NCBI GenBank assembly: GCA_958295945.1
Contig: OY282386.1
Location: forward strand, 3,094,204-3,158,203
DNA from: Candidatus Poribacteria bacterium
Lineage (GTDB): Bacteria > Poribacteria > WGA-4E > WGA-3G
Reading direction: 5' to 3'
Length of the DNA: 64,000 nt
The notes beneath the pieces were generated by a model that was given only the letters and a program-made list of their open reading frames with translations, had not been told where the DNA came from and ran no database searches. The position numbers and the translations under genes are program-made. Of this stretch, positions 877 to 60,337 are shown piece by piece. Position 1 is the stretch's first letter; the number at the start of each line of letters is the position of its first letter.

Positions 877-1240
877 TATATTATACTATAGTTTGGACAA
901 TTTTTGTTCAGTGGAAGTTGAGTCTTCAACGGAGAAACTATTTTCAGCGAGTTTCCCATATCGGGGGAACCCCACGAAAAATGCTGCACTCCAGTGGAGT
1001 GCTATGTTTATAGAAACGTTATGGCATATTCTCGCACTCCAGCGGAGTGCTATGTGTTAATTCATACATACCGCTCCGCTGGAGCGGGGAGGTTGTTCCA
1101 TACTGTGGCTATAAACATATTGCTCCGCTGGAGCAAAGAGCGTTTGGGTATTGTGTCAGAATTGGGTAACAGATGTCGTCCAACAAATTTCTTGTCCTAA
1201 ACTCACGTATGAAAATTGTCCAAAGTATAGTATATTATAA
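877..1240. mobile_element. 364-bp element bounded by about 24-bp inverted repeats, nested in the 345-1370 element
   Basis: The left end (about 877-905) contains ACTATAGTTTGGACAATTTT. The right end (1211-1240) is its inverted counterpart with ACTATACTTTGGACAATTTT; over the best 24 bases only two differ. No open frame of transposase type is inside. The interior is the four-hairpin array at 986-1136. The TATAGT...GGACAATT end resembles one end of the 119-bp element at 1707-1825, suggesting related mobilising enzymes (inference). Confidence 0.6.
986..1136. repeat. Four-hairpin array, two direct plus two inverted units (copy 1)
   Basis: Four self-complementary 17-mers centred on CTCCAGYGGAG or its inverse lie at 986-1002, 1034-1050, 1071-1087 and 1120-1136. 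The first two read forward, the last two inverted. The outer pair is each followed (read outward to inward) by a TATGTTTATAG tail (1003-1013 and, inverted, 1109-1119). The array at 9945-10120 has a different palindrome but the same order and the same tail. No coding frame fits. Confidence 0.75.
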
Positions 1241-4014: not shown

Positions 4015-4088
<74 letters not shown>

Positions 4089-7189: not shown

Positions 7190-7915
7190 ATGAAAACCAA
7201 CATTCTTTATATTATCAGTCTGTTACTGTTGTGTGTTAGTTGTAATGTTGAACAGAAACAACAACTAAGTTATGTGGGAGGTGGTGGCAACAGTGAATAT
7301 CGAATACTTGAGGTCCGTATGCCAGAAAGCTGGAAAATAGTTAATGCAGAACTTACCCCCAAACAGGTGAACTTAGAGTTAGATAGAGGTAATGGTATTG
7401 AAAAACAGAGTTTACTGCTACCGTTCCCAATTAAAAAACTGAATGAGAATATAAAATTCAGAGGTGCAAATAGATTAGATGGACTAACACTATTACATTT
7501 TTCCATAGAGGAAGATCCGCAGAGTGAGTTTAACCCACCAATTGGCACTACCAAGATTTCGTCAGGAATAAAAAAACGTGAAGAATTTGCCATCTTTCGG
7601 ACAAGTAATTGGCTTGTGATTCATTACTCAATTAAGAATACGGTTCTCGGTGATTTGACTTTTCACGACCTTACAAAACGTTACGCAAAAGACCCAAACA
7701 ATAAAGGAAACACGGCTTCTTTTGAAACTATTGACGGTAAAATGCGCTATAATTTAGCGTTTAATAATAAGGAGAAACGAAGTTTTCTCATTGATGGATA
7801 TTATGGTCAGCATGAGACTTATAACAGAAGATCAGTTGGTAGTAGTAAAAGCAACAATGAATTGAGTTGGACTTGGCGTTACAGGATTAACTCTAAACAG
7901 GAAAAGGATAGGTAA
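7190..7915 (+). CDS. Putative lipoprotein, tandem paralogue 1 (241 aa)
   Basis: Family not recognised. It begins with a lipoprotein signal (IISLLLLCVSC, lipidation Cys near residue 18). A beta-rich body carries the phrases RGNGIEKQSL, KFRGANRL and ISSGIKKREEFAI, shared with the next gene. TGGGAG sits before the ATG. This gene and the following one are the two arms of a tandem duplication with a period of 787 bp: the 45 bp before both ATGs are almost identical, including the end of the upstream gene. Presumably anchored in the outer or inner membrane, facing the periplasm. Confidence 0.75.
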   Translation: MKTNILYIISLLLLCVSCNVEQKQQLSYVGGGGNSEYRILEVRMPESWKIVNAELTPKQVNLELDRGNGIEKQSLLLPFPIKKLNENIKFRGANRLDGLTLLHFSIEEDPQSEFNPPIGTTKISSGIKKREEFAIFRTSNWLVIHYSIKNTVLGDLTFHDLTKRYAKDPNNKGNTASFETIDGKMRYNLAFNNKEKRSFLIDGYYGQHETYNRRSVGSSKSNNELSWTWRYRINSKQEKDR

Positions 7916-7976
7916 GTATAAAATCAATTCAGATCGTTGAGAAAATGTTCACAGTGTAAAATGGGAGAATTTCCTT

Positions 7977-8711
7977 ATGAAAACCAACATTTTTTATATT
8001 ATCAGTCTCTTATTGCTGTGTGTTAGTTGTAATGTTGAGCAGAAACAACAACTGAGTTATGTGGAAGGTAGTGGCGGTCATGAATACCGTATGCATGAGA
8101 TCCGTATACCAGAAAATTGGAAAATAGTGGATGCGGAACTTGATTTCAGACAGTTGAACTTAGAGTTTGATAGAGGTAATGGTATTGAAAAACAGAGTTT
8201 AAGATATCCATACAGAGCTACTGACATCATTGATGACTACTATGAGTATTTTAAATTCAGAGGGGCAAATAGGTTAGCTGGACGAACTTTATTACATTTT
8301 TCCACAGATGAAGATCCGCAAAGCGAGTTTAACCCTCCTATTGGAACATCCAAGATTTCGTCAGGCATAAAAGAACGTGAAGAATTTGCCATCTATCGGA
8401 CAAGTAGATTGCTTGTAATCCATTTCTCAATTAAGAATACGGCTCTCGGTAATTTGACTTCTCACGACCTTACAAAACGTTACGCAAAAGACCCACATAA
8501 TAGAGAAAAAACGGCTTATTTTGAAATCATTGATGGCAAAATGCATTATAATATAGTGCTTAATAATAAAGAAACACGAAGCTTTCTCATTGATGATTAT
8601 TATAAGAATGAAACTTATAACGGTAGTGGAGAAAGCAGTAGTATAAGCAATAATGAGGTAAGTTGGACTTGGAGTTATAGGATTAACTCTAAACATGAAA
8701 AGGATAGGTAA
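7977..8711 (+). CDS. Putative lipoprotein, tandem paralogue 2 (244 aa)
   Basis: Closely similar to the gene before it, with the same signal (IISLLLLCVSC) and the same leader sequence up to the ribosome site. Differences cluster after residue 50, including a short Asp/Tyr-rich insertion (DDYYEY near 83-88). The C-terminal SWTWSYRINS matches SWTWRYRINS of paralogue 1. Both frames are intact, so both copies are probably expressed. Function unknown. Confidence 0.75.
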   Translation: MKTNIFYIISLLLLCVSCNVEQKQQLSYVEGSGGHEYRMHEIRIPENWKIVDAELDFRQLNLEFDRGNGIEKQSLRYPYRATDIIDDYYEYFKFRGANRLAGRTLLHFSTDEDPQSEFNPPIGTSKISSGIKEREEFAIYRTSRLLVIHFSIKNTALGNLTSHDLTKRYAKDPHNREKTAYFEIIDGKMHYNIVLNNKETRSFLIDDYYKNETYNGSGESSSISNNEVSWTWSYRINSKHEKDR

Positions 8712-8771
8712 TTATAAAATCAATTCAGACCGTTGAGTTAATCTTTGCGGTGTATATCCGGAGAACGACAA

Positions 8772-9539
8772 ATGAAAACTTGGATAGTTTACATAATTAG
8801 TCTTTTATTGCTGTGTAGTAGTTGCCAGATAGAACAACGGAGCCTGATGGAACAAAAGTCACGTGACTTTTTTGAACAAAAACCGCGGACAATATCCATA
8901 GGTAGTGATGGATGGAGTACGTTTCAGATAGTCATGCCGGTCTATTGGAAAATAGCTGATGCTCAACTTAATTTAAACCCAATAAATGAAGAATTTGATT
9001 TACACTTAGCGTTTGATAGAGGTAGAGGAATAGAAAAACATAGTTTACCGGTTGACTTCCTGCCTGATGATTATGCCGAAGATATTCAATTCAGTGGTGC
9101 AAACAGGATTGATGGGTTGGCATTCTTACATTTTAGTAAAAAAGATCCTCAAATTATAGCAAAACCTTCGGTGGGTATATCCAGAATTAATAAAGAGGCA
9201 AAATTCCATGAGATCATACTTGCTTATCGAAGCGGTAATCAACTTCAGGTACATTTTTTAGCCGAGAATACTCCGTTTGGTAATCTCCAATCTCACGATC
9301 TTCACCATTACTATTTTGGGAAAGCTGAGATTAAAGACCACGCGAAGTATAGATTAGAACTCAATAATGGTGAATTACAATTCAATTTTGGTCCGAACTC
9401 TAAAAGTAACCGAAATTTTTCCATTCACAAGTTGGTCCATCGGCATGAAAAATTTGGCCCCGGCGGCCACGTGGCTGCTATGGGGACAGTTAGGTTGCAG
9501 GTAACGGCGCGCTATGAATTAGACTCTAAACATAAATAA
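8772..9539 (+). CDS. Putative lipoprotein, diverged tandem paralogue 3 (255 aa)
   Basis: The third member of the array is more diverged. The ATG at 8772 is chosen over an upstream in-frame codon at 8745 because GGAG (8759-8762) precedes it and it restores the signal MKTWIVYIISLLLLCSSC. Shared phrases include FDRGRGIEKHSL and FSGANRIDGLAFLHFS. It has an extra Gln/Arg-rich stretch after the lipidation Cys. The upstream region keeps only fragments of the leader seen in copies 1 and 2. No terminator hairpin is visible after the stop. Confidence 0.72.
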   Translation: MKTWIVYIISLLLLCSSCQIEQRSLMEQKSRDFFEQKPRTISIGSDGWSTFQIVMPVYWKIADAQLNLNPINEEFDLHLAFDRGRGIEKHSLPVDFLPDDYAEDIQFSGANRIDGLAFLHFSKKDPQIIAKPSVGISRINKEAKFHEIILAYRSGNQLQVHFLAENTPFGNLQSHDLHHYYFGKAEIKDHAKYRLELNNGELQFNFGPNSKSNRNFSIHKLVHRHEKFGPGGHVAAMGTVRLQVTARYELDSKHK

Positions 9540-9868: not shown

Positions 9869-9944
9869 GCACAGTTGTCCGTCGGGTAGAGCGTTAGCGA
9901 AACCTATAGGTGTGCAGTTAAGGAATATATGAATATGAGAAATG

Positions 9945-10120
9945 CTCTTTAGTCCCGTCCGGACGATATGTTTATAGGTGTCCGTTTGTCCCCCCTCCTC
10001 TTTAGTTCTGTCCGAACGATATGTTGTCCGTTGCGGCTAGTACAAACATATCGTCCGGACGGGACTAAAGAACGGTGTTTCATGCAGGATCTATAAACAT
10101 ATCGTCCAGATGGGACTAAA
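9945..10120. repeat. Four-hairpin array, two direct plus two inverted units (copy 2)
   Basis: Units run CTCTTTAGTCCCGTCCGGAC... at 9945-9977 and CTCTTTAGTTCTGTCCGAAC... at 9999-10027 forward, then inverted at 10042-10070 and 10091-10120. Each has a short palindromic core (CGTCCGGACG in two copies). The outer units end in ATATGTTTATAG, as in the array at 986-1136, though the palindrome itself differs. No open frame. The 9540-10431 interval holds only such repeats and no gene was found in it. Confidence 0.75.
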
Positions 10121-10240
10121 TATGGGACAATCCCAATAACAATGGGGACTGAGAAGGTTCATAGTCCGACAACCGTTTTCTTAAGTGGACACCTAATGAA
10201 CTTTGACGTTCAAGTTGTGTCCTCGTCCGGGCGAGGTTTC

Positions 10241-10398
10241 TACGCCCGATAGACAGAAACAGACAAAACAAGCGGGTTGGGAGACCCAACCCCTACGCGG
10301 ACAGGACCGATTTTGGTGGTCTCTACGCCCGATAAACAAAAACAGACAAAACAAGCGGGTTGGGAGACCCAACCCCTACGCGGACAGGACCGATTTTG
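10241..10398. repeat. 75-bp tandem duplication with a GGGTTGGGAGACCCAACCC hairpin
   Basis: Positions 10241-10315 and 10324-10398 are near-identical (two base differences noted), period 83 bp. Each contains a perfect hairpin GGGTTGG/CCAACCC and ends GGACAGGACCGATTTTG. The second unit ends about 15 bp before the folA ribosome site, so the hairpins lie in or near the folA leader. Confidence 0.8.
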
Positions 10399-10431
10399 AA
10401 TATCAAAGTTCATTAGGAGGACTAAAGTACA

Positions 10432-56168: not shown

Positions 56169-57236
56169 ATGAGAAATAGGTTATTATCATTTATAATAAT
56201 GCTATATACAGTCCTCACATTTGTCTCTAGTAGCATCGCCCAAAACCTGCAGGACGATCCACAGCAAGGAGATTCCCATGATGGCGAGAAAGCGCAGCAT
56301 AAGACAAGACCGATCTTTAATATCCAGTATTCACCGGATGGTAAGAAACTCGCGGTTGCCGGTTTACTCAGCATTCGATTCTGCGACGTACAGACAAGTA
56401 AGGAACTTGATGGACTCACTGTGGCTGGGTATGTGTTTGTACCCATAAGCGTAGCATATAGTCCTGATGGCAAGACACTCGCAAGTGGATGTAGGTTGGG
56501 AACCATTCACCTGTGGGATACCGACAAAGGCATACCCCGACATACACTATCTGGGCATACGAAAGCAGTCTTGAGCGTGAATTATAATCCTGATGGCAAG
56601 ACACTTGCAAGTGTAAGTACCGACAAAACCCTCCGTTTATGGGATGCAAACACCGGACAACTCCTACGAACACTCAAAGGGCATAAGGGACCGGTATTAA
56701 GTGTGGACTACAACCATGATGGCAGGATGATTGCTACTGGGAGTCAAGATCGAACTGTTCGTCTGTGGGATGCAAACACTGGACAACAAATACGAACATT
56801 CAAATGGGATAAGGGATACGTCCGGAGCGTAGTGTTCAGTCCTGATGGCAGTACTATCGCAACTGCCAGTCGGAACAATACCGTTAGTCATATTTGTCTG
56901 TGGGATGTAAACACTGGACAACAAATACGAACACTATCTGGTTATACGAGGAGACATAGTGAGGGGTCAAGAATTTCTGCCGAGGGTGTTGAGTCTAATA
57001 GCATAGCATTTAGTCCGGATGGTAAGACGATTGCAAGTGCAAGTTTTGGTGAAACCCATCAGTGGGATGTGAATACGGGACAACATCTACGAACACTTGA
57101 TGGGCAAAGGTCGTGGACCTTTAATGTAGCGTTCAGTCCGGATGGTAAGACGATTGCAAGTGCCAGTGCGTATGAAGTTCATGTGTGGGATGCAAATACA
57201 GGACAACTCATCAGAACACTCATTAGTCGTTATTGA
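56169..57236 (+). CDS. Secreted WD40 beta-propeller protein 1 (355 aa)
   Basis: Signal peptide at 1-24 (FIIMLYTVLTFVSSSIA). Seven WD40 units follow, each with a YSPDGK- or FSPDGK-type strand and LWDANTGQ-type end; seven units make one closed propeller. Probably a periplasmic or surface interaction platform; no enzyme motif. AAAGGAG precedes the ATG. It differs more from the two downstream propellers than they do from each other. Confidence 0.88.
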   Translation: MRNRLLSFIIMLYTVLTFVSSSIAQNLQDDPQQGDSHDGEKAQHKTRPIFNIQYSPDGKKLAVAGLLSIRFCDVQTSKELDGLTVAGYVFVPISVAYSPDGKTLASGCRLGTIHLWDTDKGIPRHTLSGHTKAVLSVNYNPDGKTLASVSTDKTLRLWDANTGQLLRTLKGHKGPVLSVDYNHDGRMIATGSQDRTVRLWDANTGQQIRTFKWDKGYVRSVVFSPDGSTIATASRNNTVSHICLWDVNTGQQIRTLSGYTRRHSEGSRISAEGVESNSIAFSPDGKTIASASFGETHQWDVNTGQHLRTLDGQRSWTFNVAFSPDGKTIASASAYEVHVWDANTGQLIRTLISRY

Positions 57237-57338
57237 TACTACTACCCTCCTGTATATTCAAGTGTCAATTTTGCTTCGTCAGTTCCCTGTCTTTTTATAC
57301 AATAGATATTTGGAACAAAACATAGGAGAAACTAACCG

Positions 57339-58490
57339 ATGAAAAACAGATCCTTTCCAATATTGATGACATTGTTGATAGCATTCCCAATTATGTCTTG
57401 TAGTCTCCCCCAAGGTTCATTGGAGGATACGATATATGAACCACAGCAAAAGCGTCCACACCAAGACGTGAATGTTTCCCTGAGAAAATTAAAGACCATT
57501 ATGGATGTGCAGTTTTCACCCGATGGCACACTGCTCGCGATTGCGACGGACATTGGGATTTTGCTTTACAGGACGAAGACTTATGGCAATCCTGAAATAC
57601 TAAAAGGGCACACTGGTAATATATGGAGTATAGCGTTTCGTCCGGATGGAAAGGTGCTTGCCAGTGCAGGACAGGACAAAACTGTCCGTTTGTGGGACGT
57701 TAACAGTAGACAACAAATAAGAACCTTCGGAATAAACCTATGCCCTAGAACTAACATTGTGTTTAGTCCAGATGGAAAGATGCTCGCGAGTGGAGGTATG
57801 AATGATGATACGGTTGCTAACGCTTATCTGTGGGATGCGGATACAGGTAAAAGTTTACGTGCATTTTCTGGACGGACGGTTTCTGGACATAGGTTAGCAG
57901 TGATCGGTGTGGCATTGAGTCCGGATGGAAAAATGCTCGCAAGTACGTATGATGATCAAACCGTCCGTCTATGGGATGTGAACACGGGACAACAAATAAG
58001 AACGTTAACTGAACAAATAAGAACACCGTCTGGGTATAGGAGGATGTGTAGAAGCGTTGCATTTAGTCCAGACGGAAATATGCTTGTAAGTGGAGGTGGA
58101 CATAGAAACACTGTTGATCTGTGGGATGTGAACACAGGAGAACAAATTAGATTACTTACTATCAATGCCCACTTTGAACAAAAAATAAATTCCCTCATAG
58201 GTACAGGATGGAGTACGATTAATGGTGAAGATGTGGCGTTCAGTCCGGATGGAAACACTATCGCAATTACTGGACCTTCTGCCATCCATCTATGGGATAC
58301 AGGCACAGGACAACACCATAGAATACTCCATAACGGACAGTATCCTGGACAGTATCCTGTTGAAGTAATAACAGATATAGCGTTCAGTCCGGATGGAAGT
58401 ATCGCATGTATTGGTCGGCTTGAAGCGCATGTATGGGATATGGAAACGGAGACACTCATCCACTTACTGATAGATATTACTGATAAATAA
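57339..58490 (+). CDS. WD40 beta-propeller lipoprotein 2 (383 aa)
   Basis: Lipoprotein signal LLIAFPIMSC (Cys near 21). Seven WD40 units: VQFSPDGTLLAIATD, IAFRPDGKVLASAGQ, IVFSPDGKMLASGG, VALSPDGKMLAST, VAFSPDGNMLVSGG, VAFSPDGNTIAIT and IAFSPDGSI. AGGAGA before the ATG. DNA from about 57515 to 58300 is nearly identical to gene 3, pointing to recent duplication or gene conversion. Confidence 0.88.
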   Translation: MKNRSFPILMTLLIAFPIMSCSLPQGSLEDTIYEPQQKRPHQDVNVSLRKLKTIMDVQFSPDGTLLAIATDIGILLYRTKTYGNPEILKGHTGNIWSIAFRPDGKVLASAGQDKTVRLWDVNSRQQIRTFGINLCPRTNIVFSPDGKMLASGGMNDDTVANAYLWDADTGKSLRAFSGRTVSGHRLAVIGVALSPDGKMLASTYDDQTVRLWDVNTGQQIRTLTEQIRTPSGYRRMCRSVAFSPDGNMLVSGGGHRNTVDLWDVNTGEQIRLLTINAHFEQKINSLIGTGWSTINGEDVAFSPDGNTIAITGPSAIHLWDTGTGQHHRILHNGQYPGQYPVEVITDIAFSPDGSIACIGRLEAHVWDMETETLIHLLIDITDK

Positions 58491-58508
58491 ACATTAGTCC
58501 TATATAAT

Positions 58509-58715
58509 TATGTTAACCTCCATGAAGATTTTGAAAATGGCATTCGTCGTATCGTTAAGGTAATTCTCCCCGAATTCTCATCTGAACAAAGATTACTGGT
58601 TTCTGAAGAGTTAGCTGCTGATGAATCTATTGATTCAGAAGAAAGGGAATCAGCGGTTGATATTTATTTAGAAGCCATTGAGTATGCTAGTAACGGTAAT
58701 CTTATTAAGTGGTGA
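58509..58715 (+). pseudogene. Orphan 3' gene fragment without a start codon
   Basis: 68 codons reading NLHEDFENGIRRIVKVILP, SEQRLLVSEELAADESID and ESAVDIYLEAIEYASNG to a TGA at 58713-58715. No ATG, GTG or TTG is available in frame. Acidic-helical composition is protein-like, so it is probably the tail of a lost gene. A lone half of the GTGTGTAAAG repeat (ACTTTACACACTC) lies just after it, near 58750. Confidence 0.4.
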
Positions 58716-58919
58716 CAACTTTGCAAACGTGTTCGGGCATTTGTGACAAGACTTTACACACTCATTGACATATAAATAAAAGATGATAGAATTTAGGTAG
58801 GGATTTCAATAGAAATTGAAAAGATAGAACACACCTACCACATAAAAGTAGTTTACAATATTTCCCAGAGAACCCACTGCTATATATGACATACCAACCA
58901 GAAATAGGAAAACTAACCC

Positions 58920-60077
58920 ATGAAAAACATATTGTCCTCAACTTTGATAGCATTGTTTATAGCACTTCCATTCTTGGCATGCAGTCTCTCTGAAGATTCA
59001 CTGAATAATCCACAGCAAAAGCATTTGTCCGATAGCGTGCAATTGGATTCCGGGGAAGTAAGGTGTTTTGATATACAGTTTTCACCCGATGGCACACTGC
59101 TCGCGATAGCGACGGACATCGGGATTTTGCTATACAATACAAAGACTTATGGCAATCCTGAAATACTTAAAGGGCACACTGGTAATATATGGAGTATAGC
59201 GTTTCGTCCGGATGGAAAGGTGCTTGCAAGTGCAGGACAGGACAAAACTGTCCGTTTGTGGGACGTTAACAGTAGACAACAAATAAGAACCTTCGGAATA
59301 AACCTGTACCCTATAACTAACATCGTGTTTAGTCCGGATGGAAAGATGCTCGCAAGTGGAGGTATCGGTGGTGATAAGGTTGATAACGCCTATCTGTGGG
59401 ATGCGGATACAGGTAAAAGTTTACGTGCATTTTCTGGACAGACGGTTTCTGGACATAGGTTAGCAGTGACCGGTGTGGCATTTAGTCCGGATGGAAAAAT
59501 GCTCGCAAGTACGTATAATGAGCAAACCGTCCGTCTGTGGGATGTGAACACGGGACAACAAATAAGAACGTTAACTGAACAAATAAGAACACCGTCTGGG
59601 TATAAGAGGAAGTGTTGGAGCGTTGCATTTAGTCCAGACGGAAATATGCTTGTAAGTGGAGGTGGACATAGAAATGCTGTTGATCTGTGGGATGTGAACA
59701 CAGGAAAACAAATTAGATTACTTACTCTCAATGCACACTTTGAACAAAAAATAAATTCCCTCATAGGTACAGGATGGAGTAAAATTAATGGTCAAGATGT
59801 GGTGTTCAGTCCGGATGGAAACACTATCGCAATTACTGGACCTTCTTCCATCCATCTGTGGGATACAGAATCGGGACAGTCCCATAGAATACTCTATAAC
59901 GGACAGTATCCTGCTTATGCAATGAGAGATGTGGCATTCAGTCCAGATGGAAGCACAATCGCTTGTACAGGGTGGCAGGAAGCACATGTATGGGATGTCC
60001 AGACAGAAAAGCTTATCCGAGTACTCATAAGTCATCCGAGTATTCATAAGCCAGTACTAGGGAGAATCAACAAATGA
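58920..60077 (+). CDS. WD40 beta-propeller lipoprotein 3 (385 aa)
   Basis: Lipoprotein signal LFIALPFLAC (Cys near 21). Seven WD40 units in the same order as gene 2, with GNPEILKGHTGNIWSIAF and EQIRTPSGYKRK; differences from gene 2 are scattered. The stop overlaps the ATG of the decayed fourth copy (ATGA). Possibly part of a family that recombines to vary the propeller face. Confidence 0.88.
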   Translation: MKNILSSTLIALFIALPFLACSLSEDSLNNPQQKHLSDSVQLDSGEVRCFDIQFSPDGTLLAIATDIGILLYNTKTYGNPEILKGHTGNIWSIAFRPDGKVLASAGQDKTVRLWDVNSRQQIRTFGINLYPITNIVFSPDGKMLASGGIGGDKVDNAYLWDADTGKSLRAFSGQTVSGHRLAVTGVAFSPDGKMLASTYNEQTVRLWDVNTGQQIRTLTEQIRTPSGYKRKCWSVAFSPDGNMLVSGGGHRNAVDLWDVNTGKQIRLLTLNAHFEQKINSLIGTGWSKINGQDVVFSPDGNTIAITGPSSIHLWDTESGQSHRILYNGQYPAYAMRDVAFSPDGSTIACTGWQEAHVWDVQTEKLIRVLISHPSIHKPVLGRINK

Positions 60078-60337
60078 AAGACATATTGTCCTCAATTTTG
60101 AATGGAAGGGTGCTTGCAAGTGCCGGTGAGGATAGGACTGTCCGTTTGTGGGACGTTAACAGTAAACAGCAAATCAGAACCTTTGGAAACCTGTACCCTT
60201 TAGCAAGCATAGTGTTTAGTCCGGATGGAAAGATGCTTGCAAATGGGGTGATGATGACGTTAATAACGCTTACCTGTGGGATGCAGATACAGGCAAAATT
60301 AAGGAAATGCACATCAACTAAATCTTGGCAGATATGA
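60074..60337 (+). pseudogene. Decayed fourth WD40 lipoprotein copy
   Basis: Starts with MKDILSSIL, the signal start of gene 3, then jumps directly to NGRVLASAGEDRTVRLWDVNS of the second WD40 unit: an internal deletion joined through the similar words AATGGAAGGG/GATGGAAAGG. After FSPDGKMLANG the frame is lost (the homologous DNA continues as CTTACCTGTGGGATGCAGAT in another frame). Nothing recognisable follows 60340. Confidence 0.8.

Follow-up and report, generated by a model that had tools for sequence, protein, structure and literature searches.

Four-hairpin arrays in a Poribacteria genome as probable gene-less forms of an IS200-like transposon with paired hairpins at each end

Introduction

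In REPtrons and BIMEs, the gene for a Y1 transposase (TnpA_REP or RAYT) lies between short palindromes in both orientations, the palindromes occur in many dispersed copies, and families of units are specific to their transposase. The hairpins described here share these features, with at least 147 copies, but they differ in the transposase, which carries the motif Y---Q--HH and not Y---NP (0 of 108 loci) and falls below the cut-off of the RAYT model NF047646, and in the units themselves, which lack a GTAG (GT[AG]G) foot, stand two to an end with a period of about 50 nt, and have a conserved 3' tail in place of the 5' tetranucleotide.

IS200/IS605 elements (TnpA_Y1 subclass 1.1) likewise combine a small HUH/Y1 transposase with hairpins at both ends, and the transposase studied here scores above the cut-off of their model NF033573. 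Classical IS608-type ends carry one hairpin each, used on one strand, whereas here there are two hairpins per end and the ends are inverted relative to each other. By layout and abundance our system would work like a REPtron; its enzymes appear nearest to the IS200 type, but with different ends.

TnpA_Y1 subclass 1.2 has been described from Cyanobacteria and Bacteroidetes as being without REPs and, in general, without hairpin ends of the IS200 type (PMC6006769). The enzymes considered here resemble that subclass in their Y---Q--HH, WQ and DH[IV]H motifs, a length of about 157 aa and low copy number; they differ in that hairpins are regular (22/24 and 31/52 loci), which is not a defining protein trait, and in that further phyla have the enzyme. 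In the open-licence papers searched, nothing was found on hairpins of subclass 1.2. REPINs, in which two inverted REPs form a mobile unit (PMC3116915), are also gene-less inverted arrays, for which mobilisation in trans by a Y1 enzyme has been proposed; ours have four hairpins, two per arm in tandem. Finally, PMC3733652 describes TIRtrons, in which Y1 genes (TIRYTs) lie between long inverted repeats, some of them self-complementary. The TIRs described there go mostly with class 2 enzymes with HTH tails, whereas the tnpA loci here lack consistent outer TIRs.

Results

Structure of the array

The window is the whole stretch of DNA analysed, 64,000 nucleotides of a Candidatus Poribacteria bacterium (GCA_958295945.1, contig OY282386.1, positions 3,094,204 to 3,158,203). 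At window positions 9944-10124, between two genes, lie four hairpin units of about 30 nt, two forward and then two inverted (++--), as an earlier note on this DNA had recognised. The features of this array and of a first array in the window are:

9907..9925, + strand: left arm of a T2-family TIR element, TAGGTGTGCAGTTAAGGAA, an inverted repeat spanning the array (L196 464-482), with related ends elsewhere in the genome
9944..9977, + strand: hairpin unit 1 (outer), with foot, stem-loop GTCCCGTCCGGAC and tail GATATGTTTATAG; score 45.5
9997..10030, + strand: hairpin unit 2 (inner), with core GTTCTGTCCGAAC and shortened tail ATATGTT; score 12.4
10040..10073, - strand: hairpin unit 3 (inner, inverted), with core GTCCCGTCCGGAC; score 36.3
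10091..10124, - strand: hairpin unit 4 (outer, inverted), with core GTCCCATCTGGAC and tail GATATGTTTATAG; score 39.3
10177..10195, - strand: right arm of the T2-family TIR element, read inverted TAGGTGTCCACTTAAGAAA, the inverted-repeat partner of the left arm
980..1142, no strand: first window array, ++--, with ACTCC and GCTCC cores, inside a 364-bp TIR element (L195, units 372-534)

Each unit has a pyrimidine-rich foot, a 5-bp stem, a 3-nt loop and the tail GATATGTTTATAG, which is shortened in the inner units; across the family the conserved 3' tail is NNATGTTTATAG, and in 133 collected units the foot columns are pyrimidine-rich, followed by A, C or T. Aligned in register with its relatives, the hairpin of this array reads GTCC(C)-GTC-(C)GGAC, a variant form; GTCCC-GTA-GGGAC is more common. 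The palindrome CGTCCGGACG, which the note had taken as the core, is present but secondary to this hairpin, and the unit start that it gave, CTCTTTAG, holds for units 1 and 2 but not for units 3 and 4, whose inverted readings start with TTCTTTAG and ATATTTAG. Its proposal that the two window arrays share a common frame around an exchanged core stands. With up to three mismatches, CGTCCGGACGATATGTT has four matches in the window (0.10 expected), and with up to one mismatch so does ATATGTTTATAG (0.54 expected), four being reached in 0 of 100 shuffles in either case; the ATATGTTTATAG matches are confined to the outer units of both arrays. Folded as single-stranded DNA, the whole 9944-10124 array gives z = -11, mainly because the ++-- order makes one long inverted repeat. 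A known RNA family was considered for the array and rejected, the Rfam search of the window having returned tRNA only.

The note had also taken the array to be free of a TIR element. It in fact lies within one that has 19-bp arms and spans 289 bp (9907-10195), short and non-coding as MITEs are, and of a different family from the 364-bp element around the first window array, whose arms are at 877-904 and 1212-1239 (L195 269-296 and 604-631). The homology of loci L002 and L007 to the array query ends at the right TIR arm (query 296, window 10195). Directly adjoining this TIR element is a second inverted-repeat element (window 10192-10417, arms 10192-10223 and 10386-10417) that contains two 81-bp direct repeats, 96% alike. 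Elsewhere in the window, three tandem lipoprotein-like ORFs at 7190-9539 are repeats of one another, and the translation of 56429-60246 contains many imperfect repeats of a motif that we take to be WD40-like.

Hairpin units across the genome

A BLAST search of the array locus against its own genome (5.34 Mb, one contig) gave 61 matches, 20 of which end exactly at the right edge of the array (query 221, window 10120), indicating that the array itself is the common part and bearing out the note's view of it as a unit of its own. With a covariance model of the unit, we found at least 147 units at E ≤ 1, with 150 of 1402 candidates scored. A chance resemblance limited to two loci, which the note had named as the outcome that would undo its reading, is excluded by this number and by the recurrence of the layout in other phyla. 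The units group into 90 clusters, which a custom scorer resolved into 23 of type ++--, 11 of type ++ and 11 of type --, the remainder being single, partial or longer and one having no match. There are three core families: GCTCC/ACTCC (first window array), GTCCC/GTTCC (the 9944-10124 array) and GCCCC/GCACC/GCCTC. Neighbouring units on the same strand are spaced 47-54 nt apart in 142 of 164 pairs from Poribacteria and in 82 of 105 from other phyla.

The stems covary. In an alignment of 52 of the 133 collected units, hand-picked and pre-filtered for the tail and for pairing at four or more of five pairs, changes on both sides were seen in 6/6 pairs, with 56 such cells against 14.3 in shuffles (0/500 as high). 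Because these 52 had been filtered for pairing, the count was redone on own-genome units selected by tail and without a pairing filter: 78 of 106 pair at four or more of five positions in register, and when they are slid by 1-3 positions only 0 or 1 of the 106 do so.

Some array hairpins are interrupted at their tips. The loops of array hairpins are the exact site of a short repeat, ATGAAGATTAA, which has an inverted end and occurs in 20 distinct contexts at unit apices (L256, L235, L236, L238, L254, L042, L155, L160, L203, L204, L206, L212, L214, L227, L310); its strict end motif ATGAAGNTTAA, a slightly different pattern, occurs in 44 distinct contexts over all retrieved loci, some of the further ones resembling loops of other palindromes. 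The ATGAAGATTAA repeat resembles an element whose target is the tip of a hairpin. Array hairpins are also broken at the loop by a second insert, the palindromic CAAATCAACG...TTTGTCGGG (L026, L216, L053, L055).

A resident Y1 transposase between paired hairpins

The note had suggested looking for a linked Y1 or HUH transposase, and one is present in the genome, flanked by the same paired hairpins. It is the one Y1_Tnp gene over cut-off, encodes 159 aa (L031:1378-1857, - strand), and has two + units on one side and two - units on the other, all of the GCTCC family. A second PF01797 match (L032) was rejected, being below cut-off and within the ORF of another gene. The resident TnpA scores 94.4 bits against PF01797 and 73 bits against the NCBIfam IS200 model NF033573 (cut-off 55), compared with 32.6 bits, below the cut-off of 80, against NF047646; its PDB relatives include 2xm3 (E 1.8e-8). 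The motifs DHIH, WQ and YIRNQENHH are the published signature of TnpA_Y1 subclass 1.2 (PMC6006769), and by this motif signature the tnpA between the paired hairpins is a member of that subclass. A gene-less ++-- array adjoins the resident tnpA element. On either side of the element and its gene-less neighbour, a gene start is duplicated (L031 1120-1200 and 2385-2455); the gene is presumably nitroreductase-like.

The same layout around related tnpA genes

Matches to protein P0001 at E ≤ 1e-3, counting weak Y1 ones, occur in 47 of the 58 genomes in the family. An alignment of 16 TnpA sequences was used to search named genomes, loci being selected by protein similarity alone, and gave 80 loci in Poribacteria, Bacteroidota, KSB1, Ignavibacteria, Verrucomicrobia, Neomarinimicrobiota and Acidobacteria. 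The scorer used to locate units had been trained only on Poribacteria (threshold 8; 0 matches in 234,151 shuffled bases), so the Poribacteria layout counts overlap its training set and the counts for other phyla are independent of it. The nearest units are + upstream and - downstream at 22 of 24 Poribacteria loci (one of them, L083, titled only 'bacterium') and at 31 of the 52 loci scored in other phyla, four of the 56 there having too short a flank. The full ++/-- arrangement around tnpA is reached at 17/24 and 9/52 loci, respectively, at threshold 8. Upstream of the genes of other phyla we counted 89 + and 36 - units, and downstream 20 + and 58 -; only two units lie more than 1.2 kb from the gene, in 175,842 bp. 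A tnpA on a Bernardetia plasmid, outside the scored set, has the same layout by eye. The scan gave no unit match at a Persicobacter gene that is 35% identical. Among 20 other Y1 genes serving as a control, hand-chosen at low identity (≤32%) from genomes of the same family, one has a nearby unit, and a weak one.

The motif Y---Q--HH is present at 27 of 28 loci from the genome search and 75 of 80 named loci, two sets that overlap in genomes, and Y---NP at 0 of all 108; [DN]H[IVL]H is found at 28/28 and 63/80, and WQ at 28/28 and 78/80. In a same-genus genome (L053), the tnpA gene is surrounded by GTCCC-type units. Since the resident gene is of the GCTCC type and a tnpA of the GTCCC type exists in that same-genus genome, the array copy at 9944-10124 is probably orphaned; the resident tnpA would not be the cognate of this GTCCC-type array.

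When the tail tetranucleotide is mapped onto a tree of TnpA (106 rows, 92 distinct), 16 changes are needed against 54.7 in shuffles (0/300 as low), a signal that may come in part simply from linked DNA being inherited together. In Poribacteria the core (14 changes against 32.1) and the loop (10 against 24.4) follow the tree as well; in other phyla they do not clearly follow it (core 26 against 28.7, with 20/300 shuffles as low; loop 22 against 24.3, with 25/300). This pattern is consistent with recognition of the tail through its sequence and of the stem through its shape.

Element ends, TIR elements and the orthologous site

Among 806 pairs of loci, 11 are at least 85% identical, and in six of these 11 the homology breaks off, on both sides, no more than 10 nt from the outer hairpin feet. 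Over all 806 pairs, both ends fall at hairpin feet in only 44; in most pairs divergence is too great for a local alignment to extend that far. Two GTCCC-type loci of one genome, L074 and L078, share 671 aligned columns from foot to foot in different surroundings, with a weaker match of about 90 bp just past one end. We found no empty site for the tnpA element or for a lone array, and no clean array-less copy among T2-family ends without arrays, joined T1 flanks or joined T3 flanks. A T3-type TIR element at L304 1501-1672 has a single hairpin and seems short of exactly one period of about 50 nt.

Many arrays of the genome lie inside TIR elements. These belong to at least five families, and the 364-bp type has about 16 copies whose flank matches are 95-100% identical, so another transposase probably spreads arrays as TIR cargo; the null for TIRs around own-genome arrays was contaminated by related loci, and no p-value was drawn from it. 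The 289-bp element may have been what last moved the 9944-10124 array, as cargo, to its present site. Outer TIRs were also considered as part of the tnpA element and rejected, 4 of 60 loci exceeding the 99th percentile of mismatched flank pairs; at one of these four the repeat is itself a hairpin. At the orthologous site, scanned in 11 of the 15 relatives' retrieved loci, one relative (G011) keeps the array, with a T2 end, ++ units in opposite orientation and an interrupted third unit, and in the other 10 the stretch upstream of the dihydrofolate reductase gene contains no unit.

Discussion

The array is, in our view, probably a small HUH/Y1 (IS200-like) transposon of the layout [hp+ hp+] tnpA [hp- hp-] in a non-autonomous version that lacks the gene, a reading drawn from sequence comparison. 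Two units about 50 nt apart form one end, and the other end has the same make-up, inverted. TnpA, probably as a dimer, would bind the paired hairpins on exposed single strands, such as the lagging-strand template, recognising stems by their shape and tails by their sequence; it would then cut near the outer units and move the DNA between them. An array without the gene would be mobilised only in trans, or be a relic.

The TIR elements suggest a competing account, in which the array is merely an internal part of MITEs moved by a TIR-recognising transposase and the hairpins have nothing to do with the Y1 enzyme. Our array does lie within the 289-bp element, arrays occur in five or more TIR families, the 364-bp type is present in its roughly 16 closely matching copies, and the homology of two relatives extends to the TIR end. 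We nevertheless consider this account unlikely, given that the same hairpins flank tnpA genes without a consistent outer TIR (4/60 loci), that one core family is found in several TIR families, and that the layout is also present in other phyla. TIR movement is still the likely cause of the copy at 9944-10124 being where it is.

It seems distinctly improbable that a host role independent of transposition maintains the hairpins, whether as terminators, mRNA stabilisers or chromosome-structuring sites of the kind proposed for REPs. An intergenic position between two genes and a strong fold would suit such a role, and PMC3733652 reports roles for REPs, but the array is kept at the orthologous site in only one of 11 relatives, and linkage to and co-variation with one tnpA subclass would not be expected; a secondary host role is compatible with this evidence. 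Least credible of all is that the locus encodes a structured RNA or is an array of the integron or CRISPR type: its hairpins are repeated and their stems covary, as such a locus might show, yet the tRNA at 4015-4088 is the only Rfam match at gathering score in the window, and the hairpins stand in opposite DNA orientations and track a DNA transposase.

For the Y1-linked transposon that we prefer, the best reading is of a system REP-like in behaviour yet outside RAYT/REP by motif tests. We lean towards regarding subclass 1.2 as a separate mobile system, REPtron-like and found in several phyla, whose ends follow a code of their own, in which each end has two tandem hairpins at a fixed period of about 50 nt, the stem is read by shape and the 3' tail by sequence, and gene-less four-hairpin arrays are the non-autonomous forms. 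A transposase subclass described as lacking recognisable ends would thereby gain a candidate substrate that can be tested with oligonucleotides. If true, this would set a system of paired hairpins between IS200 elements and domesticated RAYT/REP systems, with a bearing on the origin of REP sequences, and it would explain a palindromic repeat family in Poribacteria and near these genes in several other phyla.
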